Positions 13,119 through 57,652 of a stretch of DNA of 64,000 bases are shown here, piece by piece. Position 1 is the first letter of the stretch. Each line of letters begins with the position of its first letter. The stretch comes from Tribonema minus. Its lineage: Eukaryota > Sar > Xanthophyceae > Tribonematales > Tribonemataceae. The notes beneath the pieces were generated by a model. That model saw only the letters and a list, made by a program, of their open reading frames with translations. It was not told the origin of the DNA and ran no database searches. The DNA lies in contig JAFCMP010000168.1 of NCBI GenBank assembly GCA_017506865.1, positions 186,001 to 250,000 of the forward strand, in the 5' to 3' direction. The translations under genes were made by a program, and so were the position numbers.

Positions 13119-15928
13119 TGGACAAGTATGCAGCATACAAGTCTATGTTGCGTGCTCTGCCAGCGCTGGCAGCTGCTGAAGCTAAGTCAACAGTGCCGTT
13201 GTCAGCAGCAGTAGACTTCCAGCATCTCGATCCAGCATCATTCAGCGTTACGTAAATACGTTATTCATGCACATAATGGAGAGAGGCAAAATGAATGGGT
13301 TATGGGCATGCATAAACTGCAAGCAGCTGTCTCTGCACACCCGGTCCGGCGGTTCATGTGCAACTGGTTTGATGTAGAGCACATGGATAGCCCCGCCTGA
13401 TCCGAAAGATGAACCTTGGAATCACATACGGCACTTGAACACGTTACAGATTTCTGTGTAGCCTCGCCGTGTTGCACTGTTGCTTCAATCGGGTCCATCG
13501 ACGCAGACAGTGACTGACTGAAGTCACGCTTCGGCATTGTAAAGCTCAGTTGCATGAATGTGAGCGCGGATGGGCTCAGCACTGATATCAGCGTTATGAG
13601 TGGAATGAGATCCCCGGCTGATCGTCTGAGCTGCATACCTGTGCCGGCACTTCCACTTCTGTGTTGCACGTCTTCCAGCGGCTGGCTGTGTGCGTGGGCT
13701 TCATTGCAGCATTACGTGGGGAGCTGTAGTAGATTTAACAGACAAGCAGTTTCAAAAGCTGGCGTTCATGATCATGCTTACGTTTCACATACACCTACAG
13801 CCTTGCATGCAGTTTGTCAACCCTCAATTTGCAGTGACTCATTTTGCTCTTGCCGCTTGCTGCCCTGTGCTCTGCGTGCACACAGATGTGACCCACATGG
13901 CATAATAGACGCTGCTACTCCGAGGGCTAGTTGGTCATGGAATACATCGTTCAACTGGATCACAGGGGACTCATCATGGCAATGTACATAGTGTACACCT
14001 TACTTGCGAGGTATGTTTCTGTGACTGGGTGGTTGCCATACGTACATGCATTCTGTCGACTGTCGCACCATGATGTGAATATGGAGCAGTTCTGATGCAT
14101 ATGGAAGAATCGTGGCATCTTTTTGAAATGTTGCTCTTGAAAGTTTTTGTACCAGTGCGGAATTCTTAATTCGCAAAACTTTGGCCCTGCCTGTGGGAGT
14201 CACTCCGCTAGCATGTGTTCTGCTCAATGGATTCACCTATAACAAATGAACACTCCACATTGTTTGCCCTTGCGGTGCCATTCCCAGCTGCTCTGCGCTC
14301 TTTGCTGCTATGCTTTCAATGCATTGACAACGATGTGCGTCTGCACAAAGCCAGCCTAGGTAGAGTGTATACTCGGCAGCGTGGATGGCATTTGCAGAAT
14401 TACATGGTGCCTCCCATCACCTCATTTGCATACAAAACTGTGTTTGCAGCGAGCGTACTTTGTGATGCAGTAGCCCGCATGTGGAATCACAGCTCCAAGC
14501 TGGCTGCAGCAGTGGCAGTAACTTTGCAAATAGGTACATGCAAGGGCAGACTCAGGGACGTGACGCACGTGCTTCGGTGCAGCAGTGAGCTGAGATATCA
14601 GACGTCCACAGCACCACTGGCATGCGCAAAGCCCAGGATGCGCTGCCTGAACCGCCCACCCCACAGCCCGCCGCTCTGCAGTCTACAACATCAAATCTGT
14701 GCATCATGTGCTGAAGTGTAATGCGCACATGCAGCAGTTCCCTTCTATCCCTGAGCGCTGAGGCACTGCAGCACTGCTCAGTGATTTTGCCCCCCTGTAT
14801 TTGCACGCTGGAGACGGGCCGGGCGAATCCTCCCGAAAGCAAATTCTTCCGCAGAAGAACACTCCGTGCTCAAATGACATCATGCATCTGTGCTGGCTTT
14901 GTGAGTGTGCTATTCTTTGCCGCGGTGCTGTGTCGCCGAGCTTCGTTGTGCTGCAGCTACCAAAGCACTCAACAACGGCCTTCATCTGGACAGGCGGACG
15001 CGGACACAGGTGCGTGGCTCTTTGCTGCAGATGAGTGCCAACGCACGCCACGCACTCACGTAACGGAGCTGACACATGTTTCTGTTTGCCTGATGCTCTG
15101 CAGAACCACACACCACTCACAGCTACAGCGGCATCAGCATCACAAATACCTACTGACAAGTAGCATCAAGGCACAGACAGGAGCACCTGCTCACCACAGC
15201 ACACACACACTTGAGCAGCACAGGTGAGCTTTTTGCAAAGCGCGCTCAGCTTGGGTCTGCATGCTTTTGCCTCTGCACAGTGAAAGTATTTGCCAGGTCG
15301 GCGTAACGCTATTGTATGTCAGGCGTGGCAGCGACTTTGCAGGCTGCGGTACTGCATTAGCGGCATCGTGAATGCGGAACTTCACATTATGTTGATATAG
15401 CATTTTCGTTTTCCGCGACCTGTGTTGTGGAGGTGCCTTTGTTTCTTGCCGACACTCGCAGCAGCTTCGTCGCAATGGGACTGGTAGTCCAAAGTGCTGG
15501 CTATATGTACTGACTCATGGAAACTTCGCAACTGTTCCTGGCACACATGCGCATGATCACAGATTCATGTGCAGCATCCGTTCTGACATACTTCTGACAT
15601 ACACGCGACGTTGATGACATGGCGTGCTCACCACAAGTTACCTGCTTACCTTCCTGCTGCCTTCACAGACCAACACAGGTCTCAACTAAGCCTTCTGACA
15701 GCGTTGAGCAGCGACTCCACCACCTGACCACTCGCCACTGCAGCAGCAGAGCAGGCAGGCAGCAGCAACAGCAGCCTAACCACCAGCCACACAAAAGCAG
15801 CCACCTCCACCACCACGGCCACTAGCCGCAACAGCAGCACCAGCAAGCGACTCACAACGCGCACTCAGGGCACCACCCCGCTCAGCAGCAGCACCACTAC
15901 CGCCACCGCCACCATCACCCTCACGCCC
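13119..15928. other. Long intergenic stretch upstream of the epimerase gene
   Basis: 2.8 kb, less G+C-rich than neighbouring genes. No open frame on either strand shows a known domain or coding-like codon bias. The last 200 bp (15730-15925) are CAG/CAC-rich and probably form the 5' UTR or promoter of the epimerase gene. A spliced small gene or non-coding RNA could be missed here. Confidence 0.5.
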
Positions 15929-17236
15929 ATGGTGCGCTACGAGCAGCCCGAGACGCTGCACGAGATAGACACGTCGTCCGACCCGGCGTACGCGTCCGAC
16001 AGCATGGCGAGCACGCTGTCGCCCGGCAGCACTGCCTCATCGGATGACAGCGGCGAGCCCGCGGCGTTCGCGGAGGCGACCCCCGCCGATAGCGGCCACA
16101 AAACCGTCCTCGTCACCGGCGGCGCGGGCTTCGTCGGTGGCGCCGTCGCGGAGGCGCTGCTCGCACGCGGCGACGACGTCCTCATTGTCGACGAGGTCAA
16201 CGACTACTACGACGTGCGCGTGAAGCGCGCGAGCCTCGCGGCGCTCGTCGCGCGCTACGGCGCGGCGCGCGTGCGCATTTTCGAGGGCGACGTCGCGGAC
16301 GCCGCCTTCATGGGCGCGCTCTTCGCGGCGCACGCGCCGCAGTGGATCGTGCACATGGCCGCGCGCGCGGGCGTGCGGCCAAGCATCCAGGACCCCTTCG
16401 TCTACGTGCACAGCAACGTGCTCGGGACGACGCGCCTGCTCGAGCTCGCGGCGCGGCACGGCTGCCGCAGCTTCGCGTTCGCGTCGTCGAGCAGCGTGTA
16501 CGGTGAGGGCGCGGCGGAGGTCTTCAGCGAGGACGACGCCGTAGACGCGCCCGTGTCCCCGTACGCCGCGACCAAGAAGGCGTGCGAGCTCATGGCGCAC
16601 ACGTACGCGCACCTGTACGGGCTCAACGTCGCCGCGCTGCGCTTCTTCACAGTCTACGGCCCGCGCGGGCGCCCCGACATGGCGCCGTACAAGTTCATCG
16701 CGGCGGTGTGCGCGGGGCGCGAGATACAGCAGTACGGCGACGGCTCCACCTCGCGCGACTACACGTACATTGAGGACATTGTCGACGGCGTCGTGCGCGC
16801 GCTTGACCGCCCACTCGGCTACCAGGTGTACAACCTCGGGCGCGGCGAGCCGACGCGCCTGTCGCGCTTCATCGGCATCGTGGAGCGCTGCGTGGGGCGC
16901 GCGGCGGTGATCCGCGTGTGCCCCGAGCAGCCGGGGGATGTCCCGCGCACGTGCGCGGACATCTCCAAGGCGCGCCGCCTGCTTGGCTACGAGCCGCGCG
17001 TGTCGTTCGAGGAGGGCATCGCGCGCACCGTCGCATGGTACAAGGAGACGTACATGGCGGAGGAGGGGCTGCCGCAGCAGCCGCAGCAGCAACAGGAGGT
17101 GGAGCAGCAGGCGGCGGCGGCGGCGGCGACGGCGCTCATGACCGCGGCGGCGGCAAAAGCGCAGGCCCTGACGGCGCTGCCGCCGGCCGCCGTTGTCGTC
17201 GTGGAGCCGCACGCCCCCACAGCCATGGTCCTGTAG
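15929..17236 (+). CDS. NAD-dependent sugar epimerase, UDP-glucuronate 4-epimerase-like
   Basis: Single-exon gene of 435 aa, the only long intronless gene in the window. It is an extended short-chain dehydrogenase. The Rossmann motif GGAGFVG is at residues 64-70, the early acidic residue region reads VDEVNDYYD, the Ser motif SSSSVYG is at 186-192, and the catalytic Y212-A-A-T-K216 (YxxxK) is intact. RFFTVYGPRGRPDMAPYKF and QYGDGSTSRDYTYIEDIV are the substrate-side blocks typical of UDP-GlcA 4-epimerases (UDP-GlcA to UDP-GalA, precursor of pectin- or alginate-like uronans). The match to this subgroup rather than UDP-Glc 4-epimerase rests on RPDM and the NDYYDVRVKRASL block. The first 57 residues are Ser/Asp-rich with no membrane helix, unlike plant Golgi GAEs, so a cytosolic enzyme is likely. 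The C-terminus (about 380-435) is Gln/Ala-rich low complexity. Confidence 0.92.
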   Translation: MVRYEQPETLHEIDTSSDPAYASDSMASTLSPGSTASSDDSGEPAAFAEATPADSGHKTVLVTGGAGFVGGAVAEALLARGDDVLIVDEVNDYYDVRVKRASLAALVARYGAARVRIFEGDVADAAFMGALFAAHAPQWIVHMAARAGVRPSIQDPFVYVHSNVLGTTRLLELAARHGCRSFAFASSSSVYGEGAAEVFSEDDAVDAPVSPYAATKKACELMAHTYAHLYGLNVAALRFFTVYGPRGRPDMAPYKFIAAVCAGREIQQYGDGSTSRDYTYIEDIVDGVVRALDRPLGYQVYNLGRGEPTRLSRFIGIVERCVGRAAVIRVCPEQPGDVPRTCADISKARRLLGYEPRVSFEEGIARTVAWYKETYMAEEGLPQQPQQQQEVEQQAAAAAATALMTAAAAKAQALTALPPAAVVVVEPHAPTAMVL

Positions 17237-38672: not shown

Positions 38673-41600
38673 ATGCGGGGACTAAAGCTGCGTAGATGTA
38701 CAAGATGGCTGTGTGCAGTTGCCAGCGTGAGCAAGTCATCGTGCTTGTCATCGCAGTCACAGCTGAGGCTGCGACCACATTCCCACAGCTGCAGAAGCGC
38801 AGCACGATGCATCCACGGCGGCAGACACGCGCTGATGATGGCGGACCAACAAGGGTGGCAAGAAGGCGTTCGCGTGAAAATCATCAGCAGTGGAGAGTCA
38901 GGTGTGATCCGCGAGAAGCGCGGTCGTGGCTGGTGGACAGTGGCTTTAGACGACAAGGATGCCGTGGCGTCGGTCACCACCAGAGCATCCAATCTTGCAC
39001 TGTCAGGTGCTGACAAGGCTGCTGCACAAGGTGGCACAGACCTAGCAGCAGCTCCAGCAGCTCCACAACAGCAAGACCACTTGCCCGTACAGAAAGCCTT
39101 AGATGCACAAGCCGACAGCGCCAGTGACGGCACCGCGACGACTGCACATGTCAGCAGCAGCGGCGCCGCCGAAGACAACACCACCACACGACGCAGCAGC
39201 ACCAGACGCAAACCTCCATCAACAACGACAGCAGCGCCGCTGCCGCCGCCCGCCCCCCCAGACACCCCCGCCCTCGTCACCCTCGACGACCCCACGCTCC
39301 CGCACCGCGCCGTGACGCAGTGGGTCGTCTTCTCGGACCTGCACGTCGGCGTCGGCAGCCTGTCAGTCTGCATGGAGGTGCTCGACAGGGTGCGCGCGGA
39401 GGCGGAGGCGCGGCCCGGCGCCGGCGTCCTCTTCCTAGGCGACTTCTGGCACCTGCGCGGCACGCTGCGCGTCGACCTGCTCAACGCCGTCCTCGCGCGC
39501 CTCGCCGCGTGGCGCGCGCCCGTCGTGCTGCTGCCGGGCAACCACGACCAGGTCGACAGTTGAGTGGGCTGTGTGTGGAGGCAGGGGGGTGGGGGGAGCG
39601 TGTTGAAGTTGTGAATTTGCGTGTCGGTTGTAGGGCGGGAGGGGGGGGGGGGGGGAGGGGGCAATGCGCTCATGCATTGATTGTCTCTCGTATTGTGTCA
39701 TTTGCGGGGTGATGCTCCCAGCGGATGGGTCACCGACTGTTTCTGATTCTCAGTGTCAGAAACAGGTCGTGGGGAGTGAGTGCACTTGCACTGCTGTGTC
39801 GGCAAGCGTGAGCTGCACAGTGCGTGAAGTGAAAAACAACTACTTCTATGTGCCTCTAGCCACCAGCTTCCCATTAACGTGCCACGGCGCGAATATGGGT
39901 CGCCCCCCCCTGTGCGTGGTCACTGATGCTGGCAGTGATCGCCCACAGCCTCAATCCATGCATGACCACCACCTTGCCGCACAAAGTGCCACGGGCTCAA
40001 CGTAACAATTCACACTGCGCGCCAAGTGCGAGGTGAACTTCTGCCGTGCTCCATGTGAAGCCAGAAGTAGCGGTGCGGTGCAGCTGATGCCCCCTCCCCC
40101 CCCCTCCCCCCTTTCCAGCATGTCTTTGTACCACTCCGTAAGCTGACAGGGGCCGGTGTTGAGCTTTGGTTGTTGCAGCTGTGCACCGTGTCCATTCCCG
40201 GATGTGCCACTCTCCTTACTCCACCGACGCACCTCCTGCCAATTACTGCGCCCGCTGCAGGTCAACAACCCTCAAGCGCTCGTAAACCTGGCTTGGTAGC
40301 ACCACGTGTTGCCATCCGGTGCTCACCCCCTCCCCCTTCCCCCCAACTCCCCCCCCCCCCCCTTCCCCCCCTTCCCCCCACCGCGAACAGGGCCGGCGCC
40401 GAGCACTCGCTCACGCCGCTGCGCTACGCGTTCCGCCCCGGCCACGCCGTGGTCATATCGCAGCCGACGCTGTTCCTGGGCGCGCTGTGGCTGCCGCACT
40501 GCCGCGACCAGCGCGCGCTCGAGCGCGTGCTCGCGCTCCCCGCCGCCGCCGCCGCGCGCGCCGTCTTCTGCCACGTGGACGCGCGCGGCGCCGCCATGAA
40601 CGACGGCATCTACTCGAGGTACTTCAATTCTGCGTGTTAGAAGTATGATAATACGCTCACTTCAAGTACAAGTATCACACATAGGTCCCATGCGCAGCGA
40701 GCAGCCGGGTTCGCGCACTCGAAGCCGCGGCGCGCAACTTGTGCCACGCGGACGCGCGCAGCGCCGCCACGAACGATGGCATCTGCTCCAGGTCCCGCGA
40801 CGGCACTGCGTCATGTATACATGTATGTGTGGATCGCACATGGGTGCTAGGGCTGTGACTCGGGGCCAAAGGCGTGCACCCGACCACGACTCATCCGAGT
40901 GTGTCGCTGGCGCCCATGTTGCGGTAGAAGAGCGTGTCATCGCCAGTCTGTCTTTCTGGGCAGAGATTGGCGCAGGCTCAAGACGTGCGACTGCGCTGTT
41001 CGCAGCGCATACCGTCGCCCGCGTCGCAATGGCTGGCGCGCACTCCTTCCTCCCCTCGCACCCCCCCCTGGTGCACCCAAACGCGCCCAGCCGCCCACTT
41101 GCCGCACTCACTGCACTGCCGCGAGCGGCAGCAGCCCCCCGCCCCCCCCCCGCCCCCTCCCCGTCACAGGGGTGCAACCAGCCCCTCCTGCCCAGCGACG
41201 CTCATCTTCCGACGCGCTGACACCTCACTTCCGCGCCCCCCCCCCCCCCCCACCCCCCCCCACCCCCCCCCCCCAGGACGGGCATCAGCCCGAGCGCGTT
41301 CCCCGCGGGCGCGCGCGTGTACTCAGGGCACTTCCACCGCCCGCACAGCGTCGGCGGCGGGCGCGTGCGCTACGTCGGCTCGCCGTACCAGACGTCGCTC
41401 GCGGAGGCGGGGCAGCGCAAGGAGCTGCTGATACTGGACGCCGCAGACTGGAGCGTGCGCGACGCGGTGGAGATTTGCGTCGGGCGGCGCTTCTTCCGTG
41501 CGGAGGGGGAGGGGCAGGTGAGAGGGGGGTTACGAAGAGGGGGGCGGGGGAGGCGACCCGTAGTAATTGCCGGTAGCGCTGGGGCGTGCACATGGTATGA

Positions 41601-44600
41601 CATGCTCATACTGGACGCCGCGGACTGGAGCGTGCGCAACGCGGTGGAGATACGCGTGGGGTGGCACTTCTTCCGCGCGGAGGGGGAGGGGCAGATGAGA
41701 GGGGTGGCAGGGGGAAGGTTGGGGGGGGGGCAGGGTGAGAGGGGGAGTGGCAGGTTGGTGGTGGTGGTGGGGGGGGGGGGGGGGGTGTTTGTGCGGCGCC
41801 GCGCACGCGTAGTAACTGCCGCAGGCGCTGGGCGTGCCCCGCCAACATCGGCGACGCGCGTGTGCGCGCACTCACGCAGTGCTGATGCTCCCTGTGTGTC
41901 GGCGCGTGAGGGGCAGGCTCGCAGCTGCAGCGGCTGGGCGGTGAGTTGAGTTGCGGTGCCACGAGGACACGGAGAGTCGATGCGCAGTTCCGGTCACAGG
42001 GCGCGGTGCTGCATCTTCCGCGCATCATGCAGCAGCAACACGAACCCTCGTGCTGCAGCGCCGCGTACGAGCACCGGCAGCTCATGCTCGGCACCGTCCG
42101 ACTGTAGAAAACAATCACAGCACACGTCAGCCATGTGGCGGCCGCGCTGATCATCATATGCCCATCCGCGGTCCCGCGTCGCTGCGCGCCGCAGCCGCTG
42201 CCGAGCGCCGCCGACGCGCGCCGCGGCGACAGGCTCGTGTGGAGCGTCCCCGACGTGCGCGCGGCAGCAGTTCAGGACGCTTCCGCCGCGCTGCGCTCCG
42301 CCGGCGTGGAGGTGGAGCTGCGCAGCATGCCGCGCATGCGCGCTGCTGCCGCCGCCGATGCTGAGCAGCCCTCGGCAGCGGCGGCGCTGCTGGACGGCGG
42401 CGTGCTGCCGCGCGCCGGCGGCGCCGCGGCGCTGCCGCCGGACGCGCTCACGCCGCCGTCGCTGCTTGACAAGTACCTCGCCGCGGAGGCGGCGGCGGGG
42501 CGGCCGGCGCGCGCGGACGTGCGCGCGGCGGCGGAGGCGGCGGTGCGCGCGCTCTGCTCCGGCGCAGCGCTCAGTAGCAGCAGCAGCAGCAGCAGCGCTC
42601 AGGCATCCAACGCGGCCGCTGACATGAGCAGCAGCATTGGCAGCAGCAGTGCTGTCGTCGGCAACGGCGGCGGCAGCGGCGGCGCAGCGCCGGCGCCCGC
42701 GCGGCATGCGGCGCTGGATCTCGAGGAGGTGCGGCTGGCGCGCTTCGGGCCGTTCCGCAACGCGGCGGCGTACCCGCTGCGCGGCCGCGGCGTCGTGCTG
42801 CTGCGCGGCAGCAACCGCGACGACCTCGCCGCGGACTCCAACGGCGCGGGCAAGACGACGCTCGCCGCGGCGGCGCTGTGGGCGCTCACGGGCAGCCTCG
42901 ACACGCGCCCGACGAGCGACGCGCGCGCGCAGGTATGTACCAACCTACGGGTGTAGGGTCAGGGGGGTTAGCCTGTGGATGTAGGATTAGGGTTAGGGTT
43001 AGGGTTAGGGGGGGTTAGGGTTACGGTCAGGGGTGGGCCGGAGGTCGCGTGCGTGTGCGCTCTGCTGCCGCCGCCGCCAAATGTTGTCGGTGGCAGGCGG
43101 TCAGCATGCCTCGCATGACCCTGCGTCCTCATGCCCCGCACAGGTCAGTCACACTGTTTGTGGCCAATCCCGGCGCCCCACAGCGCACCACGGGTCACGG
43201 CCCGTACGCTCAGTTGGGCAACAAACGCATTCTGCAAGGTCACGCGGCCACTTGCACCAACGCTTGCCGCAGCCGCTCGCGCCGCTGAACTACCACCACT
43301 CAGGCGCCGGCGCTTTCATGCCCTCACAACGCGACTGCGGCATACGCCCCTGACGGCCCCGCTGCATCCGCCCCGCGCTGCGCGACGCCTGCTGCTGCCG
43401 CCTCAGGACGTCGTCTACGACATGGACGGCAGCAGCGGCGGCGGCGGCGGCGGCGACGATGGCAGCGCTCCGCGTCGCGGCAGCGGCGGCGTCGCGGAGG
43501 TCACGCTGACAGCAACGCTCAACGGCGAGAAGCTCGTCGTCACGCGGCGCAAGGTGAGGGTGGCGACTCTCCCACATCTGCGCCGTGCGTCGTCGAGACT
43601 CTACATAAACCGGTCAGAGTGGAGGGGGGGTATCAGTTTTGTGCACGTCGTGCAGGGCACGCGCCCATCTCCACCGCGCCGCGCCCGCCCAGTCGGCTGT
43701 GAGCTCCTATTGCAAACATGCAGATGGAAATGTCCACGCGAAGCGCGTTGCCACTGGTGACCTCTGTTGTCGAGTGCTAAGCGTCTGCCGCTTGTTACGC
43801 CGCCGCCGCTCCTCCCCCGCGCTGCGCAGGGCGCGCACATCTCAGCTGCGCTGCACTTTCGCAACAGACCCACCCATCAGATATCCGCCACGGGAAAACG
43901 CGTCCCCTTCGCGCGCTCAGGCGCCATCAGACACGCTGAGCGTCCGCTGCTGCTGCCGCATCTCGCTCGCGCGTCAAGCCCCCTGCAGGCGCGCGCGCGT
44001 GTCAGCGGCTGCCGCTTATGGACCGCCACGTTATGATGCTGAGCGCCTGCCGCATCTCACACCGCCGCCGCCCCTCACTCATGCGTCTCCTCACCCACGC
44101 CGCAGGGCGCGCGCGCGTCTCAGCTGCGCGCGACGCTGCGCCGCGCTTCCGCCACGGACCCACTCACCAGACGTCCGCTGCGAAAACGCATTCCCCTCGC
44201 AGACGCGGGCGCCAGTGAATGCTGAGCGTCCGCTGCTGCCGCTCCTCGCTCGCGCAGGGCGCGCGCACGTCTCAGCTGCTGTCACTTCTGGTTGGCATCG
44301 TGAGATGCTGAGCACGCCTGCCGCGTTCTCACGCCGCTCTCCCCCCCCCCATGCCCACATATGCCCCCCCCCCCCCCCCGCAGGGCGCGCGCACGTCTCA
44401 GCTGCGCGTGACGCACGGCGGGCGCGACCTCACGCGGCAGGCGCTGCGCGACACGCAGGCGGTGCTCGAGCGCGACCTCGGCCTGCGCGCGGAGGTGCTG
44501 CGCCGCACGCTGTTCCAGGGGCAGCACCACATGTACGGTGAGCGGCTAGAGCGCGTGCGCGGCGACCCGGGTGGGGGGTGGACGTGTGTGTGCCGGATAT

Positions 44601-47600
44601 GGCGGCACTGTCTGACTCTCGTGGCCGATCGCCGCAGCAGCGGCAAGCACGGGTTATCGGCGGAAGGCTTGTGCGGCTAACCCCGCCTTGTCACCTCAGT
44701 AGAGCTCTACCATGTTTTGATTGATTTCCATGGTGAAGCGCAGCTGCGCCGGTGGACGGGCGCGCGTGCATGCGACGTGGAGCGCTGCTGCAACGTGCTC
44801 GCGCCGGCACTGCGCCACGCCCAGCGCCCCGCAACGCACCAGCGCCGCGCCCAGCACTCTGCAGCGTACCAGCGTGAGCGAGCGGAAGGAGTGAAGTCGC
44901 GATACACACGCGTATCGATGCGCGCGCGCTGTGACAGAAAAAGGGAGCGCGCGCGACGCGCGGCAGCACCATGGCGGCGCGTGCTGCGTTCAGCGCAGGA
45001 CCGCACGCCAATCACATGCGCGCAGGGGGTGCCATTGTGCTGTAGGGCGCCTCAAAATTGTGCGTGCGGGGTCTGAGCAGCCGCCCCCTTGCAGCTGGTG
45101 CGAATGCATGCTGTGCCAGCAAGCACGCGTGTGGTATGCCGGAACAATCCAAGCGCAGGATTTCACGTGCACACAGGAGCCTTCAATACGCACGTCAGCG
45201 GCTCTTGGGACGCACCACAGCATGTGTGCGGCCATGCAGCAAGCTGTAGTCAGCACCAATCCCTACGCAGGTTATGCAGTCAAACCCCAGGGCACCCTAT
45301 GACAGTGGTGCATAGCACAACTGACGTTGCTGTGCACGATATTGAGACATGGCGCGCAGCAGCCCCATTAGTGCTGTGCGAGCGCCGTGAAACTGCGCAC
45401 GTGACGCCGACGGCGCCTTCGTCGCCTGCGTGCGCCCCCCCCCCCCTTCCCCCGCCGCCCGCCAGGGCTGCTGGAGAGCACGGACGCGCGCTTCAAGGAG
45501 GAGCTCTCGCTGCTGATGCCCATGGACTTCTGGCAGGTGCGCGTCGCGGCCAAACCCTGGCCCAAGCGCTGACCAGGTCGATGGCGGCGGTCGCGTGCAG
45601 GTGCCGCCGTGTGGCGCCACGCTGCGCAGCGCCCTGCGCGTACATGCATTTCGCACGCTGATGCTGCGTTGAAAGGGAGCGCCTTGCTCAAGGCGCCTCG
45701 CTGCAATGAGCAACATCAAGGCGATAATGGCATGCGTGCCGCGCGGCGATGGCGGCCCGGCCCGTGCACAGCGCGAGATGCGTGATTCAACCACAAACAC
45801 CTGCGGAGCGTCGATCACGAGCCGCTGGGGCTTCTCTCGTCATTGTCTGCAGCCTGCTGTCAATCATGTGGAGCGGCAATGCGCAATGTTGGATGGGTGT
45901 TCAGGGGTTTGTTTATGGTGTATCACACGCATGCGCACACACACAGACACGCAGGTACACATGTACATCGCACTGCCAGTGGACTGCCGCATGCTCCTCA
46001 CAATGGCGCACCCGTACCGCCTCGCTGCATGGCGCAGGACGCCGCCCGCAGCGCGCGCCGCGCCGCCGCCGACGCGGAGCGCGAGGGCGACGTGCGCGCA
46101 GCGGAGGCGGCGCTGCGCACTGGCGACCTGGCGGCACGGCAGCAGCAGCGCGACGCGCTGGCGCGCGAGCTGGCGGCGCGGCGGCAGGCGTGCGGCGCCG
46201 CCGCGGCGGCGGACGACAGGTGCCCCCGCGCTCATGCTCTTGCGATGGGCATCAGAACATGGATCTCTATGTTTTGCGGTCGCTTGTGTGTTCTAGATTT
46301 GGACTGCAGGTTGAGGGGCCATTTGATCTGCGGCAGAGGAGGGGCACGCTGCGTCGCGCGCTGACGTGCTGCTGCCAAGAATAGAATAGCTCATCGGCTC
46401 AGGCATGACGAACGGCGTGGCAGAGTGACAGCTAGGGGCAGTTGGAAGTGCCAGAAGGCTTGCATTCCATTCATTCCCCGACGGCCATCGCCACGGTGTG
46501 TTTGAGCACTCACACTGTTTGCCGCGCTTGCGGGCTTGGTTCAGCGCATCAAGGCCTGCTACCTCGCACGCCATGACCAGGACAGCACGAGACGCCCGAT
46601 GGAGTGCAGATAACAAGCGGCTGAACACTGCCACACCGGTGGCCGCGGCAACAGCATCGGCGCCAGTGCTAGCAACGGCAGTCATCAACGCCGCACACAC
46701 ACTTCAGCACATGTAGACATATCTTAAGCGGCGCTTCGATCTCAGCGCACGCCCCGTCCCCCCCCCCGCGACTATCCGCCGCTGCAGCTACCACGCGCCG
46801 CCGCCGCCGCCGGCGGCAGCGGTGGCGGCGGCTGCGGGGCGCGTGGAGGCGGCGCGCGCGATAGTCGCGCAGGCCGCGACTGACATCGCCGCCGCGGAGG
46901 ACGCGCTGCGCGAGGCGCGGCGGCGCGCGGACGCGGTGGCGGCGCGGCGCGGCGGCGGCGTCGCGCCCGCGCAGGCGGAGGTGCACCGCCTAGAGGAGCG
47001 GCGGCGGTTCGCGCGCAGGTGGTGGCGGCAGGTTCTGCTGCTGCTACTGCTGTTGCTGTGTGCGCGCAAGCTGTGCCGCGGTGGTCGCAGTGGTGTTCGG
47101 CAGTGTGCGCTGGTGTGGGAGTGGATGTGTCGTGAAGGCGTTGTGCCGAACCGAAGCGACATTGCAGGCGCGGCACCGGCGCACGCCGTTGGGTAGAACT
47201 CCTGCGGTGTCAGCCACTGCACCAAGTGTATGCTCATCCTGGCCGTGACAGCATGCACAAGGCAGTTGGTGGGGCTCCTTGAAGCCGTTTTTCCCTCTTC
47301 ACTCCATGGGGTGCACAGAGAGCACTCTTGTGCACGCCAGCATCGACACCACCACCGGCCATATCGCTGACCACCGCCGCGCACTACACCGCCCGCGCGT
47401 CACGCACTTGTGCAGGGATGCCGACGCAGCGCGCGCTGCCGCCGAAGCGCTGCGCGGCGAGCTGAGCGCGCTGCGCGCCGCTGCTGCGGAGGCGGCGGCG
47501 GGCGACGCCGACGCCGACTCCGCGCGCGCCGCGCTGGACGCCGCGGCGCGCATCGCTCAGGATACGGCGGCGGCGGAGGCGGTGGCGCGCGCCGCGCACG

Positions 47601-50600
47601 CCGCCGCGGCGGAGCACCTGTCTACGCACCGCAAGGCTGCAGCGCGCAGCGCCAGCGGCGGCAGCGGCGGCGGCAGCGGCGGCGGCAGCAGCGGCGGCGT
47701 CTCCGTGTGCACGTCGTGCGGCCAGCCCATTACGCCAGAGTTCGCGGCGGCGCGCGAGGCGTCGCTGGCGGCGGCGGCGAACGCCGCGGCGGAAGTGGTG
47801 ACGCAGGCGGCGGGCGCCGCCGCGGCGGCGGCGCGTGCAGCTGCCGCTGCGGAGACGGCGCTCGCCACGGCCCAGCGGCGCAGCGCGCTGGCAGGGCGGG
47901 CGGCGGACGCAGAGGCGGCTGCGGCGGCGGCGGAGCGCGCTGCCGGCGACCGCGCACGCGAGCTCGGCGGCGTCGAGGACGACCTGCGCATGGCGCAGCA
48001 GGTGCGGCGCGGCGCGCATGAGCGGACGGCGGGTCTTCGCGACACGGCGGCGCATGTTGGCGATCGATGACAGGATGTCGATGGGGATGGGGCTGTTTTT
48101 TTTTTTTTGTGATTGCTGGGGTGCAGCTGCAAAGCTGCGACACATTGTAAACAACTCGGTGTTCACATGCAGACGCTGCGCACTGGGGGACGACGAAACG
48201 ACGCGGCGTTCCCCATCAGCAACGGCCCTACCTCAAAGCTCACGTTTTGAAGTTTTGACAGTGTCTGCGCCCGCCGCGCTGCTGGCGTGCTGCACCCTCA
48301 TGTCTGCGCCTCTGACCCCCCCCCCCCCCTCCTCTGGCCGCCGCTGCGTGCGCTGCGCAGGCGCTGGAGGCGGCGAAGACGGCTGCCGATCACGACGCGC
48401 AGGCCGCCGCGAGCGCGGTCACGGCGGCGGAGTGGGTGGCCTCCGCGCACAGGTGCGTACGCGTATGCATTGTACGTGCATGTATATGTCATGCGAGAGG
48501 CGGAAACCGAGATGCTCTGAAGCATGTAAAGTGGAAATGAATCAAAAGGTCGTGGAGCTCTAGGTGACACAAGGTGTGGTTGTGTCGCCGCAAATGCCTT
48601 CCACCAATGACCGTGGTCGCCGCTGCTGCGGCAAGTGGCCACGAGTCAAACTAGTATAATACCTCTCGCGCTCACAGAAGCTGAAGCGATGGGCGCTCCG
48701 CTGGGGTGTGGGCCATTGGCCTAGGCCGCGGCGCGCAAGAGGCGGGGCCTGAGTGACAGCTGCCCGATGCCATGGGGTGCGCGGTCACACGCGGGGTCCT
48801 TGCCTGTACCCGCGTGCGTGGGCACAGCTGCCACAAATTGAGCGGACAGCGGCGCGCTGCAACCAAGTGCTGCGATAGAGCGTCAGGTGCCCATGGCGGG
48901 AGCAGTCACTGAGCTGGCTTGGAGGCGCATGTAGCGAGTCTGCGAGGTCTGGCGTCGCGCGAAGCGGCCTCTGAACTTGAGTGCGAACGCCGTAGTATGA
49001 CAAGCAGGCCTCAGGGGACGTGGCGCTCTGGTCTAAGCCTTTGAGAACGTGAGATAATATTTGCCGCCGTTTCCAGCTTTGAGCACTCAGGGCCATCCCT
49101 ACAGCCGCTGCCGCCTTTGCGCCGCGGTGCATGTGGGTATTTTGTTTTTGATGGGGATCTCCGCGCGCCGGTATCAGCAGCGGCTGATGACCTTGCCGAG
49201 CACTGTCGTGGCTGGTGGGGGCCGCGGCACTTTGGGATGGTGCGGGTCGCAGTGCGGGGCAAGGGAGGCAGCGGGTGTGTCGGCGAGCGCCCATCGGTGT
49301 GTCCCTGTCAAGTCAGCGCAATCGCGCGGACCGCCCGCATCGCTGTAGCCAGGGTTAGGGTTAGAATGGATGCGCGCCGCGCTCGCGTTGCCGCCGTGAG
49401 GTTGGTAGGGGCGTATACGCCGAACCAGCCATGCGGCGTGAGGTGAGCTGCCCACAGCCGAAGCGCTCCGGCGGGCCCGCCGCTGCCACTGCAGCTGCCG
49501 ACGCTGCACCGTAGCTGTCGCTGCCAGCGCTGCTGCCAGCATCAGCGCTCCGGACAGAGCTCTTGCGCTTACGCGCCGCAGCCGGCACCGCCGCCTCAGC
49601 AGGGCGCGAGGCCCGCCCGCAGGTCATGCCAGGAGGTGGAGTTCCTCTCTTGATCAAATTCTAAGTGTCTTGGACACTTGAGAAGAGTTTATACGGTACA
49701 GAGGCGACAGAGGATGAGGCGGCCGGTCACCAATAGGGCAAAGCTGCCATGATGGTGGCAGGGACTAGCGCAACGGAAGGTCGCCTGTTGAAACCTGCGC
49801 CGTGTCACGCGCGCTGCCGCCTCGGCTGCAGCAGCTCCCCCAGAGGCAACAGGAATCACCGCGCGCTTCAGTGCCTTCACCGCCACCAGCGATGAACGAC
49901 ATGGACCAGACTCTCTGCATGTGCACCCCACCACCAGTGCGCCAGTCAGTAACTGGTCTACGTCGGTCATCTCTTGTGGCGCTGAAGCGGGGGCAATGAT
50001 TCCATCGGCCTCTTGGGGGCTGCTGCAACTAAGGCGGCAGTGTGCACATTAAAGTGCTGGTTTCCGCAGGTGCGCTGCGGTGGCTCTGGTTTTCTGCCGC
50101 TAACGTATCGCGCACACCTTCCAATGTTCGGCGCCCGTGGCCCCTCGGTCACCGCTCGCCGCGTTGTTGATTCGACCACATCCATTTCTTTTTGCCGTCC
50201 TTCGTGTGCGCGCTTGGGCACCAGCAGCAGTAGCAGCAGCCGCCGCCTCGCCACCGCCGCAGCAGCAGCAGCAGCTGCTGCAGCAGCCGCTTTTGAGACG
50301 CTCGGTGCCATGTACCCCCCCACGCAGCGCGCTGCCGCTGCCGAGCTGCCATCACAACCACGACTTCATCAGCAGCAGTGACCAAAGCGGCCATGAGCTT
50401 GGCCGACGGTGGTATGCAATGGCCACAGCGTGCCAACACGCACCCTGACGCCATTGATGCTGTGCACTGCCGCCTCTCGGCCTTCAAGTTGAGAGTACGC
50501 CGCGTGCACAATGCCACAGATGTCAGTGTACACCCCCCTGCCCCCTGCTTGCTTGAACCCACCCATCTCAAGTTGTGGTAGCCCCCCCCCCCCGCCTCCA

Positions 50601-53600
50601 GCTAGGCTAAGCGCTGTCTGAAAACATGCTCGTTGGTTTGTCAGAGACCCATCAACCTGCCTGCGGCTGCGCCACGCACTCAGCAAGTGGGCGAGCTGCC
50701 AACCCTTTTCCCTGCGCAGCACTCTGGCGCCCACAAAGAGCGCTTCACATGGTTCGTTGAACCCAGCCATGCACTGTGATTGTGCACTGCGTGCGGCACA
50801 CGCATCGCCGTGCAATCGGGCCAGCTTGCCATCGGGCAAGCGCCTGAGCTGTGGCGCGACTCTGCAGCTTAGGGTAAGCCTAGTTTTGGGCGAGGGTTAG
50901 CCTAACCCTAACCTTAACCCTAAGTCAAGGCAGTTGCAGTTGCCGCGCCCACGTGCTCAACGCGCTGCTGCTGCAAAAGCAGTTTCGCTCGACGGTAGAG
51001 CGACGGCACGCGCGAGACTTGGCGGTTGCTGCAAAGCGCTGCAGCCGCTGCTGCTGTGGCAACAGCATCGCGCAACGGCCGAGCGACGGCAGGCGCGGGG
51101 CTTGGCGGTTGCCGCGGCGCACCCCTGAGGCGTCCGTCCGTGCTTGGGCAGGACCGTCAATATGCTGCACAGCACCAGCTGTAGCGGTATGAAGGGGCAT
51201 CTGCATCGTAGCCACGCTTGCAGCCACGCTTTTTTTACCCCTTGAAGTACTGAAGAGCGAGTGCGGGCGGTGTGCCTGAATGCGCCTGAGTCTGCTGTGC
51301 GACATACTGATGAGCGACGGCTCGCTAGCGTGAGCGTCACATTTTGAACTTCATGTTGTGAAGTTGCTGCCACGACCGCTGCCGCAGGGACAAGCAGGAG
51401 ATGGCGGCGCAGCGCGAGTTTGAGCCCGAGCTGTGTGCACACACCTGTCAAACGCCATGACGAGCGAAGGCGGCTCGTCAATACTAAAACTCACGTTATT
51501 ATATCTTTCTGGACGTGCTGCCGCAACCGCTGCTGCAGGGACAAGCAGGAGATGGCACAGCGCGAGTTTGCCAGCGCCGTGGAGCTGCAGTCGCAGTTCG
51601 TGCTGGCCAGCCAGGAGCGTGAGCGGCAGGCCAAGGACCTCGCCGACGCAGTAGAGGTATGTACTTGTCACCGAACATCATGATATACCTGCTAACATGA
51701 GCTGGCTTCACAATTGGGAAAAAAGCAGAAATGGTGGTGGTGGCGGTGTGTTGGGGGGGGGGGGTCATGCTTCCAGAGGCCCTCGTTGCGGCCTGTTTGC
51801 TGCGTGAACTGGAACTTATCAGAGCACGCCTGCGCACCCCTCTCTGAGCAGAGTCTGTGGCGTTGAACGAGTGTGGGCTGCAGCAGTGTTCAGCGACTCA
51901 TGACTGCTTGTCGCGCAAAACAAGAGAAACCATCGCCGCTTCATCAGCGGAACAGTGTTGGCCTGCCGCCGCGAGAGCCATGGGCGTCGAGCTGCGCTGC
52001 AGACATGCATGTGAGGCGGCAGCGCAGCCATGCGCGGTGACGCTAGTACTCGGTGCATCTCGGCATATCATTGTGTTCTCGTCATACTTGAGACCCACGG
52101 TGGACGTGGCAGCAGCTGACGGGTAGGGCTGGACCCCAATCCTAGCACCTGTAAATCTTTGGTAGTCGCGCTGCCGCCGACAGGCACCCAGCAGGTGCAC
52201 TTTCGCCACGTTAGCGCCCGCGGCCGGCCGAACAGCGCCACAGCACTGGCACTGCATGACAAGCAGTCCTCTGCGACTCAACGGAGTATCGGCGCAGTCT
52301 GACGCACCATCTGTGCTTCCGATGTCATCATGCACATAGGCGGCGGCAAGCAGCGACCGCCACAGCCACTACTAGCATCTGTGCATTTCACGTTGTGTGC
52401 AGGCGCTGAGCCTCAACTCTGACTGCGCCACTGGCTCAAAGCAGCGCAACCCCAGGGTTGACCCCGGGTCCCATGTAGCTCGGAAGCAATGCTGAAGGGC
52501 CTGGTATTGACGGTCAGCACCACACCAGCAGCTGACCTGCCCCCCCCCCCCCCCCCTCTCCCCCCAAAATTGCGTCGTTGTCGTGCAGACTGCCGCCCGC
52601 GCGCTGAGCGACTGCGACGCCGCCGTGCAGCGGCTCAGCGGCGAGGCGCAGCAGCTGCGGGGCGCGGCGGAGGCTGCCGCGCAGCGCAAGAGCGCGTACG
52701 CAGCGGCCGCGGAGCACCTGGGCGTGCGCGGTGTGCAGGTGAGATGGCTACCGGTGCGATTGGCGTTTCTAGGCGGTTCCGGTCTTTCTGGTGTCGCCGC
52801 TCACAGAGCACGAGATGCAGTCCTTCGCGTGTCCGCTGATGCGGACGCTTTTCACCGCGTACCAGACTGCAAAGGCTCGCCGCTGCGACGCCGCTGGCGT
52901 GCTGGCGCTCAGGTAGCTGTTGATGTACTGTTGCGCAGCGCCGGGCGCGTCGCTGCCGGGAGCAGCTGCTCCCGAGTGGCGCGTCTCATCGCTGCGCACG
53001 CGCCCTCAGCACCGCTGGCAATGGTCGATGAGGCTCGACACGCTTGCAATAACATCACGCTCAAGCCCTGGTCTGCCAGCTCGCGCCGCTGCTTGCTGCT
53101 GCCTCCCATGACAACGCTCAACCCGGGAGCCGGCCTTTCTGCGAGCCCTGCGCGAGAGCAATCTCCGTATGATGAACCCCTCTGCGCCACCCGCGCGGAG
53201 GCTGTGCTTTCAGCACCGCAGGTCACATCAACCGCCGCATCGCACGCGCCGTCGCCGCCGCCGCGCCCCTCAGAACTTCGTCTTCCGCGAGGGCGTGGAG
53301 CAGCTGGAGGCGTTCGCGGCGTGCTTCCTCGACGCGCTCAGCGACGGCGGCCTGCAGCTGTCGCTCAACCTGGACGGCGAGCGCGTCATCAAGCGCGCGG
53401 AGGTATGTATGTATGTACGCATCGAAGGTGTGGGGCATCGCTCAGCAACTGGCTGGCCCTCCTGCGACCAAGACGCGGCCGTCTCCGCGGCAGCTGCGGG
53501 TACCGATGCGCAGTTGACGCCGGTGACTTGCAAGGAGCTTTGTGCCAGAAATGCGTGTGTGTGTACGCACGCTTCGAGCGCGCCGCTGGTGCGATCGCTG

Positions 53601-55820
53601 GTCTCACGTCATCGACGCGAATGCGCAGGCGCAGGCGCATTTTGCTTCCAGCGCCTCTGGGCACGATCGCTACTGTTCTATGACTTCAAAGAGTGCCTTG
53701 GCCATGAGGATTTTCCTCCACGTGAAGCACACGCCCCTCACGCCACGCGCTTCGGGCACGATCACCGTCGCCGCCACTGCGTCGATGCAACCTCGCAGAT
53801 GCACTGTTTTTCCGGCGCACATCCCGGCATGATTGCTGCCATTTCATCGCTGCAAAGGCGTCACGGCTGCCATGCAAGGGCGCCAGGCAGCTGTGGACCC
53901 CCCAAAAAATTGTCTCAGTGTTTGCAAGATGCTCGCCTTGTCCCCCCCTCCTCGTCACCACCGATACGAGCGCAAGCAGGCACGCCTCCCTCTGAAGCCT
54001 GAGGATTTAAGCGCTTGCGTGGAGCGCTTCCAAGTGTGCAACGTGCTCACCATGTCGCCCCCTCTCATCACCAAGGAGGCAAACGCAGCAGGCACGCCCC
54101 GCTCTCGTAGCCGCAGAACCGTTCCCAGCATCACGCCCCCCCCCCCCCCTCCCCCCCCCCCTGCCAGGCACGCCCCGCTCTGGCAGTCACAGAACCGTTC
54201 CCAGCTCGCAAGTCATGGTACCCCCTGTCATCAGCCCCTCCTTGATCAGTGATCACCATGCCCCCCCCCCGCTCTCCCCCCCCCCCCCCGCGCGCACGCC
54301 AGGCATGCCCCGCTCTTTTCCCAGCGTGCAAGGCATGGTTTCTCTGTTGTCCGATCATCATGCCCCCCCCTCCCCCTCCCCCCTCCGGACGCCTTGCTTT
54401 TTCAGGTGATAGGCTCCGACGGCCAGCGGCGCGAGCGCTCGCTCAGCCAGCTGAGCGGCGGGCAGTGGCGCCGCGTCAGCCTGTCGCTCGAGCTCGCGTT
54501 CGCGGAGCTCGCGCGCCAGCGCTGCGGCCTCGCGTGCAACGTCGTCGTCCTGGACGAGGTGCTGTCGCAGGTGCGTGCGCATTGTGTCAGCGCTCCACGT
54601 GGCGCATGCCGTCGCGTGCAGCGCGCGCCGCAGCGGCGGCGCTGCGATCACTTGCACACGCCCCCGGGTGCACCTTCCATGGAGCGCTTGTCTCAGGTTT
54701 TCGCAGGCGGGCTTGTTTGTCGGGCGGTCACGGCGCTCGCGCGGCAGCGCTGTCGGCGTGCTTTTGCGACGTTCTGTCCTGGACAATGTGGTGCTTCAAA
54801 GATCTGGTGTACAGAGAGGCTGAGCTCGGCATGGAGAGGCCGCTTGATGCGGATGCCGGAAGTGTGACTGGTGCGTGCTTGCGTGACGCGGTGCTGATCG
54901 CTGTGAGGCAGAGGGAGACACCGTGCAGCACCGCTGCAATCCTGTCGCGTGAGCCAAACACTCGCTGGCAGTGGTCTGCCCACTCTTTCCGTGCGCGGCG
55001 GCGTTTCCAGCACCTGCCCATGACAAGCAACAGCGCATCTCGCAACATCTGCCGCATGGTGGTATGCAACAAAGCTCGGGCAAAGTGCGCCGCTGTATAC
55101 GACATTGCTCGGGCAACGTGTGCGGCGCTGTGATGACTCAATGCACCCATCATTTGTCTGCTGAGGTGCACCACTGGGGTTTGCGTCACTTGACGCACGC
55201 CAATATTGTCACTCAAGCCGCCGCCGCCTTCGCTTTCTCTGCAGCGCCTCGTCTGCTGAGATGCACTACTGGGGTCTGCGTCGCCCGATGCACGCCAAAA
55301 TTGTCATTCAAGCCGCCGCGGCCTTCGCATTCTTCCATCCGCCGCCACGCAGCTGGACGCCAACGGCCGCGCGCGCGTCGCGCAACTGCTGCGGCACTTG
55401 TCTGCTGAGATGCACTACCGCGGTCTGCTTCACCCGACCCACACGGACATTGGTCACCCAATCCATCGCCTTTGCTTTCTTCTCATCCGCAACGGTGGTC
55501 ACTCAAGCCGCCGCCTTGTTTCATCCGCCGCCGCGCAGCTGGACGCCAATGGCCGCGCGCGCGTCGCGCACCTGCTGCGGCGCCTCGTCGCCGCGGACGG
55601 CGGCTACTCCACCGTCCTCGTCATCCTGCAGGACCTACCCGCGGAGCAGATCATTGACAGCTTCGACGCCGTCGACGAGGTCGTGAAGCGCGGCGACCGG
55701 TCGGTCATCGTCGTGGACAGTGACGCTCAGCAGCAGCAGCAGCAGCAGCAGCAGCGGCAGCAGCAGCAGGACGAGTGGGACGCAGAAGCGGAAGACGTTG
55801 TCATTGCGGAGCGCCTTTGA
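38673..55820 (+). CDS. Fused SbcD/Mre11-type nuclease and SbcC/Rad50-type ATPase
   Basis: Sixteen exons: 38673..39558/9, 40391..40618, 41277..41517, 42195..42932, 43407..43553, 44384..44537, 45466..45536, 46038..46219, 46788..47018, 47416..48001, 48361..48452, 51539..51656, 52589..52738, 53274..53402, 54406..54570 and 55539..55820, for about 1466 aa. Residues 1-50 are basic, Ser/Arg-rich and lack acids, like a mitochondrial presequence. A KOW-like stretch (RVKIISSGESGVI) follows. The metallophosphoesterase has D222-x-H224, G-D257-F-W-H, G-N290-H291-D292 and GHFHRPH. Exon 4 joins its cap to the ATPase N-lobe (ARFGPFRN, then NGAGKTT at 668-674). Two coiled coils of about 230 aa flank a zinc hook C1058-T-S-C1061. 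The C-lobe has LSGGQ (1334-1338) and VVVLDE (1364-1369). All metal and ATP motifs are present, so a DNA end-processing machine is expected. Odd points: intron 1 is not GT-AG in frame, and the first Walker A Gly is Asp666. Confidence 0.9.
40741..40795 (+). repeat. Decoy copy of the exon 2 end and donor (fusion gene)
   Basis: Copies 40568-40622 (codons for CHVDARGAAMNDGIYS and the donor) with about ten changes. Located about 120 bp into intron 2. Confidence 0.85.
41602..41703 (+). repeat. Decoy copy of the exon 3 end with ruined donor (fusion gene)
   Basis: About 100 bp matching 41426-41525 (LILDAADWSVRDAVEI through EGEGQ). In the copy the donor GT has become AT ('gggcagatgag'), so it cannot be used as a canonical site. 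Confidence 0.9.
42985..43023 (+). repeat. Interstitial telomere-type repeat in fusion-gene intron 4
   Basis: Four TTAGGG units, a short G run, then one more. It lies 50 bp after the donor of exon 4. Confidence 0.9.
43825..44412 (+). repeat. Array of exon 6 acceptor copies in fusion-gene intron 5
   Basis: The edge 'cagggcgcgcgcacgtctca' + 'gctgcgc' occurs at about 43825, 43983, 44101 and 44251, and as the true acceptor at 44381. Each is preceded by related intron sequence ('gctgagcgtccgctgctgcc'). Unit length is about 120-160 bp with heavy divergence. Only the last copy opens into exon 6. Confidence 0.85.
50871..50925. repeat. Telomere-type repeats in head-to-head orientation
   Basis: 'cttagggtaagcc', 'gagggttag', then 'cctaaccctaaccttaaccc'. 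Both strands' repeats meet within a few bases, as in a fused-telomere junction, but the tracts are very short. Confidence 0.7.
51375..51432 (+). repeat. Decoy copy of the exon 12 acceptor and exon start (fusion gene)
   Basis: 'gccgcagggacaagcaggag' then 'atggcggcgcagcgcgagtt' matches the true edge at 51528-51572, about 153 bp upstream of it. It diverges after the codons for EF. Confidence 0.88.
55157..55580 (+). repeat. Three-unit tandem array around the exon 16 acceptor (fusion gene)
   Basis: Units start 'tgtctgctgaggtgcaccac' (55157), 'cgtctgctgagatgcactac' (about 55249) and 'tgtctgctgagatgcactac' (about 55399). The second unit carries a full decoy edge (55336-55395, 'cagctggacgccaacggccg'). 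The third leads into the true exon 16 at 55539. Confidence 0.88.
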
Positions 55821-56565: not shown

Positions 56566-57652
56566 TCAAAAAAGTACTTTTATTATATTCCACTTGTGGC
56601 TGTGGAAATGCCATGTTGTAGGTGTGTCGCCTTGTTCTCACTCTTGGATGTAGCATGCAAAGCTTGCACGCCACACCCCGCCCCCCACATCACCCCCAAC
56701 AAAGCACCCGCAAGCGACTGTCCCCCACATACTAGCAGGGATACCAAACAAAGCTACAAGACTCTCCCCCCACAGACAGACCCGTCTTAGGGCCACCCAG
56801 CTCCACGCAGACTCCATCTCAAAGTTTTCATGCAGGCCAAGGTCACCATAATGGGCCCTGAACTGGAGATTGTGGCTATCTACGTGAACCCCGATATCAT
56901 AAAGATAAGCAGAGGGAGTCACTGGGCGCCAGGCGCTGACGCTAGAAAGAAAGGCTATATAACTAAGCAAAGCATCGCCTCCTTGATGAGCGGGACGGTG
57001 GTTCACCGGGCCTCCCATATCACCCCCAACAAAGCATCCGCAAGCGACTGTCCCCCACACACTAGCAGGGATACCAAACAAAGCTGCAAGACTCTCCCCC
57101 CACAGACAGACCCTTCTAAGGGCCACCCAGCTCCACGCAGACTCCATCTCAAAGTTTTCATGCAGGCCAAGGTCACCATGATGGGCCCTGAACTGGAGAT
57201 TGTGGCTATCTACGTGAACCCCGATATCATAGAGATAAGCAGAGGGAGTCACTGGGCGCCAGGCGCTGACGCTAGAGAGAAAGGCTATATAACTAAGTAA
57301 AGCATCGCCTCCTTGATGAGCGAGGTCACGGCTCACCGCAGGCTGCAAGCCTGACAAGATATTGCCATTTACCGCTGCGAGTAACTTGTGGTTGGTGCCG
57401 TGGTGTGCAGCCGACTCCGCTTGCTCTCCAAGCACGCCAAGCCGCTGCCTGTCCCTCCTCCGCACGCCAGCCAGCGCTTCCGAGACACCACCACACGTTT
57501 GAAGTTCTCTCGAAGGGGCTACGCACGCTGGCATCACCTGAGGGCCGCTGGTGCTAGCTCCTGCAAGCCCTGCAGCCCAGCCCACCCACCAAACCAGCCG
57601 CATTCGCTGCCACGCCTTTCGGCGTTAACGAGCTTAGCTCAAAAAAGTACTT
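56566..57652 (-). mobile_element. 1.06-kb doublet element, copy 2, with 14-bp target-site duplication
   Basis: The element (56580-57638) is flanked by identical direct repeats 'tcaaaaaagtactt' at 56566-56579 and 57639-57652, a clear target-site duplication. It is the near-identical inverted partner of 11302-12357. A 321-codon frame on the minus strand (57603-56638) differs from its partner at very few residues, for example DRQRL for DRERL. The same internal two-fold repeat is present. There are no terminal inverted repeats; one end is A/T-rich (ttattatattcc on this strand). A 14-bp duplication, an A-rich 3' end and no terminal repeats suggest a retroposed, SINE-like or non-autonomous element. 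Confidence 0.85.

Follow-up and report, generated by a model that had tools for sequence, protein, structure and literature searches.

The Mre11/Rad50 complex is an ATP-gated nuclease that carries a zinc hook as a tether. In addition to its canonical forms, a class of proteins in which both partners are fused was reported in 2011 from bacteria, a phage and Mimivirus as well as from two slime moulds, two Micromonas, a diatom and a moss (PMC3175470). The available part of that report covers the Mimivirus protein R555 and twelve further fusions, including those of Physcomitrella patens, Phaeodactylum tricornutum, Micromonas pusilla and Micromonas sp., names Dictyostelium and Polysphondylium among the hosts, uses the name 'moss-diatom-prasinophyte group' for some of them, and gives A7KV18 as the accession of a Bacillus phage fusion. 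It places all described fusions outside the canonical clades, proposes a viral origin for them, and notes that the canonical genes are retained in every cellular fusion host except Deferribacter (PMC3175470). The layout has been known since then from algae, moss, slime moulds and viruses, and the statement in the initial annotation of the locus presented here, that no protein of this layout had been described, is refuted by that report. The class is little studied: R555 was described in 2011 as a protein of unknown function (PMC3175470) and is also named in PMC6466248, and our literature search, at the level of titles and abstracts, found no account of the function of a eukaryotic Mre11/Rad50 fusion. 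Ostreococcus viruses carry a Rad50-domain gene which, in the available part of the source, is described as having no detectable Mre11 part (PMC12906663).

The DNA analysed here is a 64,000-nt window (C168:186001-250000) of an algal assembly of 158 Mb in 554 contigs. At 38673-55820 of this window, on the plus strand, 16 exons defined by reading frames and splice signals join into a frame of 1466 aa with a single stop codon, at its very end. It is likely that the frame belongs to a nuclear gene, present once within the reach of our searches, whose product is a non-canonical fusion of Mre11/Rad50 type built of a phage gp47/gp46-type nuclease and ATPase. On the points tested, which are layout, a non-canonical nuclease and the presence of separate canonical genes, the predicted protein fits the fusion class as set out in the available part of PMC3175470, and the gene appears ordinary within that class. 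Compared by description, it shares with the known fusions a nuclease followed by an ATPase in one chain with a linker between them, with R555 the motif GDxxH in place of GDxxD, and with nearly all of the cellular fusion hosts the presence of separate MRE11 and RAD50 in the same genome; its arms are short in comparison with R555, for which coils of cellular length are described (PMC3175470). What is added here is the affinity of both halves for phage gp47/gp46 profiles, the placement of the nuclease in a tree, and a genome search that found no second copy.

The first three exons of the gene model, all exons of which lie on the plus strand, encode the predicted phosphoesterase. Exon 1 (38673-39559) comprises an arginine-rich N-terminus (aa 1-57), a small segment (aa ~62-110), a low-complexity spacer and phosphoesterase motifs I-III, namely DLH within FSDLHVG (39330-39350), GDFWH (from 39438) and GNHD (from 39537). 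Exon 2 (40391-40618) contributes FCHVDARG with a conserved histidine, and the phosphoesterase ends in exon 3 (41277-41517) with RVYSGHFH, the GHFH motif of which lies within 41314-41337. Exon 4 (42195-42932) contains a region at the position expected for the nuclease cap and helix-loop-helix, a Ser/Gly-rich linker and the first part of the ATPase N-lobe with its P-loop (42804-42860); the N-lobe continues through exon 5 (43407-43553) and exon 6 (44384-44537, with FQGQ) and ends in exon 7 (45466-45536). Arm 1 is encoded by exon 8 (46038-46219), exon 9 (46788-47018) and part of exon 10 (47416-48001), which also holds the zinc hook CTSCGQ (47708-47725) and the start of arm 2, and arm 2 runs through exon 11 (48361-48452) and exon 12 (51539-51656) to its end in exon 13 (52589-52738). 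The C-lobe begins in exon 14 (53274-53402) and is followed by the signature LSGGQ (from 54451) and Walker B VVVLDE (from 54541) in exon 15 (54406-54570), and by the D-loop, the C-terminus, a Gln-rich tail and the stop codon in exon 16 (55539-55820). The motif series given in the initial annotation, nuclease first and ATPase second, was recovered in one joined frame in the same order and place, and its estimate of short arms of about 230 aa each agrees with the approximately 235 and 208 aa between ATPase lobes and hook that we measured from motif positions.

Splice sites were picked so that frame and homology hold, and the count of GT..AG introns, 14 of 15, is therefore partly given by construction. 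In the homologue-fitting model the junction of exons 1 and 2 is non-canonical: intron 1 reads TT..AG (equally GT..CA), which keeps the residues VDRAGAE found in the alignment with phage-type rows; a canonical alternative (39551/40404) is also in frame and costs these seven residues. Exon GC at codon positions 1, 2 and 3 is 0.78, 0.58 and 0.88, and intron GC is 0.64 overall. The introns also carry diverged tandem copies of adjoining exon ends, corresponding to the end of exon 3 (41603-41731, 84%), the start of exon 6 with its acceptor (43809-44405, a family of five), the start of exon 12 (51356-51405, 86%) and the start of exon 16 (55153-55452, 89%).

Profile searches of the joined product, as proposed in the initial annotation, yielded Pfam Metallophos above its cut-off (5.2e-6) and SMC_N (1.7e-6) and AAA_23 (1.2e-4) below theirs. 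The Pfam zinc-hook model had no match anywhere in the genome and missed even the CxxC of this gene, so that its null result is uninformative here. A Metallophos scan of the whole genome returned 37 matches, with that of the present gene at 2.3e-5. Among NCBIfam models, sbcd (TIGR00619, 2.9e-9), recf (1e-7) and sbcc (TIGR00618, 2.3e-4) all remained below cut-off, and the eukaryotic MRN model TIGR00606 does not appear among the 25 of 36 NCBIfam families listed for the protein. The strongest matches came from PHROGs, with the SbcD-like phrog_100 for the nuclease half (E 9.1e-24; 1.7e-5 on 38673-39551 alone) and the SbcC-like phrog_77 for the ATPase half (E 1.8e-30; 0.17 on exon 10 alone and 4.5e-7 on exon 15 alone). 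By profile score, both halves are closer to phage gp47/gp46 than to bacterial SbcD/SbcC. Further likenesses to the T4-type phage proteins are the motif RVYSGHFH and the short arms. The catalytic residues D, H, D, N-H, H and H-x-H are invariant in an alignment of the algal protein with 16 phage-type gp47 rows, and hhalign matched the phage-type gp47 profile over the phosphoesterase with a probability of 99.2 (E 6.8e-20).

Walker A, signature, Walker B and D-loop are all present in the ATPase, and its H-loop histidine is replaced by glutamine (VILQD for VISH, 55614-55640); the histidine is kept in all four comparators (the viral fusion L009 described below, GAP32, SRB7757 and E. coli SbcC). With this histidine absent, ATP turnover may be weak, and a slow or binding-only ATPase switch is possible. 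A P-loop insertion is found in the algal protein, in L009 and in GAP32 and is missing from SRB7757 and E. coli SbcC; two of the three phage-type ATPases compared thus possess it. The differences from the phage gp47/gp46 pairs concern the introns, the N-terminal extension and the altered H-loop of the algal gene, as well as its single frame, whereas the phage genes are separate and adjacent in three records.

The question whether the two halves are made as one chain turns on exon 4. The proposal of a single-polypeptide fusion is borne out, at the level of sequence, in its domain order and joined frame; the further claim that the fusion is independent of any predicted splice is not confirmed. 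The initial annotation had placed the end of the nuclease cap in exon 4, but when searched by itself this exon hits ATPase families only, a 16-row gp47 profile aligned to it with hhalign gave nothing (probability 0.04 of 100), and a structure model of the region at the cap position is of low confidence. Because cap homology is undetectable and exon 4 matches ATPase families alone, the case for a fusion depends on the splice between exons 3 and 4 and on the uninterrupted reading frame of exon 4 with its high GC3. Two adjoining genes, the first a gp47-like nuclease of exons 1-3 and the second a gp46-like ATPase with its start codon at one of the three in-frame Met codons of exon 4 (42327, 42336 or 42624), would be in keeping with the undetectable cap and with the separate nuclease and ATPase frames of three phage records (GAP32, XbC2 and SRB7757); a nuclease stopping at exon 3 would, however, be without its cap and Rad50-binding parts, and fused homologues are documented in algae in the available part of PMC3175470. 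Exon 4 is moreover open ahead of the ATPase, with GC3 of 0.80-0.96 in each of seven 150-nt intervals across 42195-42794, a weak test because 53 of 429 intervals outside the exons of the gene show a position bias at least as great over 480 nt. Neither AATAAA nor TGTAA was found in 41517-42700, which is likewise weak evidence since none occurs within 680 bases past the real stop codon either. We regard the two-gene arrangement as quite improbable and infer one message from exon 1 to exon 16. The predicted fusion is supported by the in-phase exon 3/4 join, the frame of exon 4, the nuclease C-terminal part that would otherwise be missing, and published precedent.

A structure model of the nuclease half (364 residues), built from a 15-row alignment, is of good confidence for about residues 1-230 and of poor confidence beyond. 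Two C-terminal helices are predicted there at a pLDDT of about 50, and the region at the cap/helix-loop-helix position is similar in length, with no detectable homology. In the PDB, the best fold matches are bacterial SbcD/Mre11, and the first of them is one chain from the head complex of E. coli SbcCD (1.7e-9). By sequence, the nuclease likewise matches SbcD (2.2e-5), the ATPase N-lobe has no credible match, and the C-lobe resembles ATPases of the ABC and Rad50 families (E about 1e-3). The best viral fold match is a Listeria phage recombination exonuclease (6.9e-15), in a search that leans towards phages because the alignment behind the model is made of phage-type sequences. Several viral targets are 769-1417 aa long, including proteins of Listeria phage LMTA-57 (1009 aa), Tetraselmis virus 1 (1380 aa), Pyramimonas orientalis virus (1193 aa), Yasminevirus (1389 aa), Harvfovirus (1343 aa) and Tupanvirus (1379 aa), as well as A7KV18 (769 aa), and judging by length and name many of these would be fusions.

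The kinship of the nuclease half was assessed in a tree of 27 rows, comprising the algal sequence, 15 phage-type sequences, eight SbcD encoded on plasmids, the SbcD of E. coli and two frames from one archaeal MAG; 15 of the 17 phage-type rows were used (L026 and L039 are near-copies), and bacterial fusions and the genome's own MRE11 were left out. The algal sequence joins the 15 phage-type rows in a group separated from the 11 canonical rows at 100/98, and lies outside the canonical clades on the longest end branch of the tree (2.36), with an odd composition. In topology tests, which were chosen after inspection of the tree, a clade of the algal sequence with the nine bacterial SbcD was rejected (p 0.007), and a position outside all 15 phage rows was not (p 0.061). 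These results bear on the alternative that the gene encodes a fused bacterial-type SbcCD, with the plastid ancestor or some other bacterium as its donor, for instance. Its fold and catalytic residues are indeed those of SbcD/SbcC, the bacterial proteins lead the PDB fold matches, and bacterial fusions exist (PMC3175470, available part); tree and topology test nevertheless oppose such an origin (in a tree from which bacterial fusions are absent), as do the profile scores in favour of phrog_100 and phrog_77 over sbcd and sbcc, and the E. coli subunits are separate, with an SbcC that lacks the P-loop insertion. We consider a bacterial-type SbcCD very improbable and retain the phage-type fusion as the preferred reading.

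When viral contigs were scanned with the nuclease, there were 129 matching stretches, 102 of them relatives, and 80 were kept; a pattern scan of the same kind of contigs with the ATPase half found no relative. One locus, L009:8004-11222 (IMGVR_UViG_3300042731_008294), encodes an uninterrupted 1072-aa viral SbcD-SbcC fusion, near a frame which we take to be RecA/UvsX-like. It resembles the algal protein in having nuclease and ATPase in one chain and a CxxC hook, and differs in kinship, since a sister placement of the two nucleases was rejected (p 0.0145). When the loci up to L096 were screened for frames of at least 700 aa with GNHD and either a P-loop or a signature, at least one, L009, was recovered, a lower bound given that many loci are partial and that the P-loop pattern missed L009's own. 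The giant-phage pairs of GAP32, XbC2 and SRB7757, considered as fusion candidates after a tblastn look, were rejected on account of their separate frames. Both genes of these pairs share the same reading frame, with one stop codon between them in SRB7757 (L095) and 12 bases after the stop in GAP32 (L094) and XbC2 (L096), and such an arrangement is a plausible forerunner of a fusion. A tblastn search of phages with 609 aa of the algal protein returned five records, four of them Brochothrix phages, and one with the ATPase half gave nothing at E 1e-3. In prokaryotes, a scan with the single pattern RV[YF]SGHFH matched 31 stretches, including four relatives in MAGs, and plasmid searches with the algal and the L009 nuclease had no match. 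A Deferribacter plasmid was one of 270 records matched in a further search.

In the algal genome, the 609-aa query (aa 214-822) had eight matches, all eight within the window; one is due to an incomplete copy of exon 3 (71%) that lies in intron 3. No second copy was found with this query, and the gene is single-copy as far as searched. Separate canonical genes, a search for which had been proposed in the initial annotation, were detected as exons in order on two other contigs, RAD50 on C379 (five matches, best 4e-15) and MRE11 on C57 (five matches, best 9.7e-20), where the exon text is what we take to be eukaryotic MRE11. These matches remain below full-length cut-offs, as expected for single exons, and they support the earlier view that the fusion is distinct from nuclear MRN. 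The fusion shares with eukaryotic MRE11/RAD50 the general layout of the complex and differs from it in that the latter are separate genes in this genome, and in that the eukaryotic MRE11 model TIGR00583 is not among the matches listed for the algal nuclease at E<=1.

The first 57 residues of the fusion protein comprise 11 R/K and no D/E, which suggests organelle targeting; Met 54 and Met 55 are possible later starts, with which the presequence would be lost. Behind it, the segment at 38865-38999 (GVRVKIISSGESGVIREKRGRGWW) has a weak, non-significant likeness to CRR42-like (E 0.19) and RegSipA (E 0.72) domains, and a single-sequence model of aa 58-116 is beta-rich at low confidence (pLDDT 60.8); this N-terminal segment might be an SH3-like added domain. 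The host is photosynthetic, as indicated by 92 exon-level light-harvesting matches in the genome. One of these loci, compared with the PDB, gave its best scores with LHCI chains of entry 9vfj (four rows), followed by chains of ACPI and CAC, which are antennae of red-lineage (cryptophyte) algae; this points tentatively to a host of the red lineage. On its predicted location and activities, the fusion protein probably acts apart from nuclear MRN and most likely on organelle DNA. Two chains would pair via their nuclease domains and ATPase heads, and ATP held between the heads would keep the nuclease covered. Nucleotide turnover would then open the nuclease, which could trim or nick DNA ends and hairpins and thereby provide single strands for recombination, with the short arms and the zinc hook tethering DNA ends. 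The fusion itself would fix a 1:1 ratio and set the C-terminus of the nuclease beside the ATPase. A more far-reaching proposal, which we advance tentatively and rate as rather unlikely in its full form, is that some algae possess a single-chain gp47-gp46 machine of phage type, encoded in the nucleus, imported into an organelle and altered in its ATPase switch. It would carry out for organelle DNA what T4 carries out for its genome, by driving recombination-dependent replication or the repair of ends. With the present gene, another alga is added to the eukaryotes in which phage-like repair fusions occur in a scattered way, and here separate MRE11 and RAD50 are seen beside the fusion; if organellar, the protein would be a further case of organelles using a replication or repair protein of phage type.

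That the gene is a recent viral insertion with no cellular role, as might be suggested by the long matched proteins of giant viruses (1193-1389 aa, taken as fusions from length and name) and by the uninterrupted fusion in viral contig L009, is highly improbable in view of the 15 introns, the intact frame, the high GC3 and the lack of any viral neighbour among the 10 of 25 other long frames of the window that were scanned with Pfam. One of these ten frames, a 502-aa open frame at 15728-17233 (plus strand), contains a GDP-mannose dehydratase/epimerase domain (E 1e-57), and the other nine, including the 328-aa frame at 11313-12296, had no Pfam match. This 328-aa frame lies on the plus strand and has a counterpart of the same length in opposite orientation at 56641-57624 (minus strand); their first 70 residues are nearly identical, and the two are probably copies of a repeat element.
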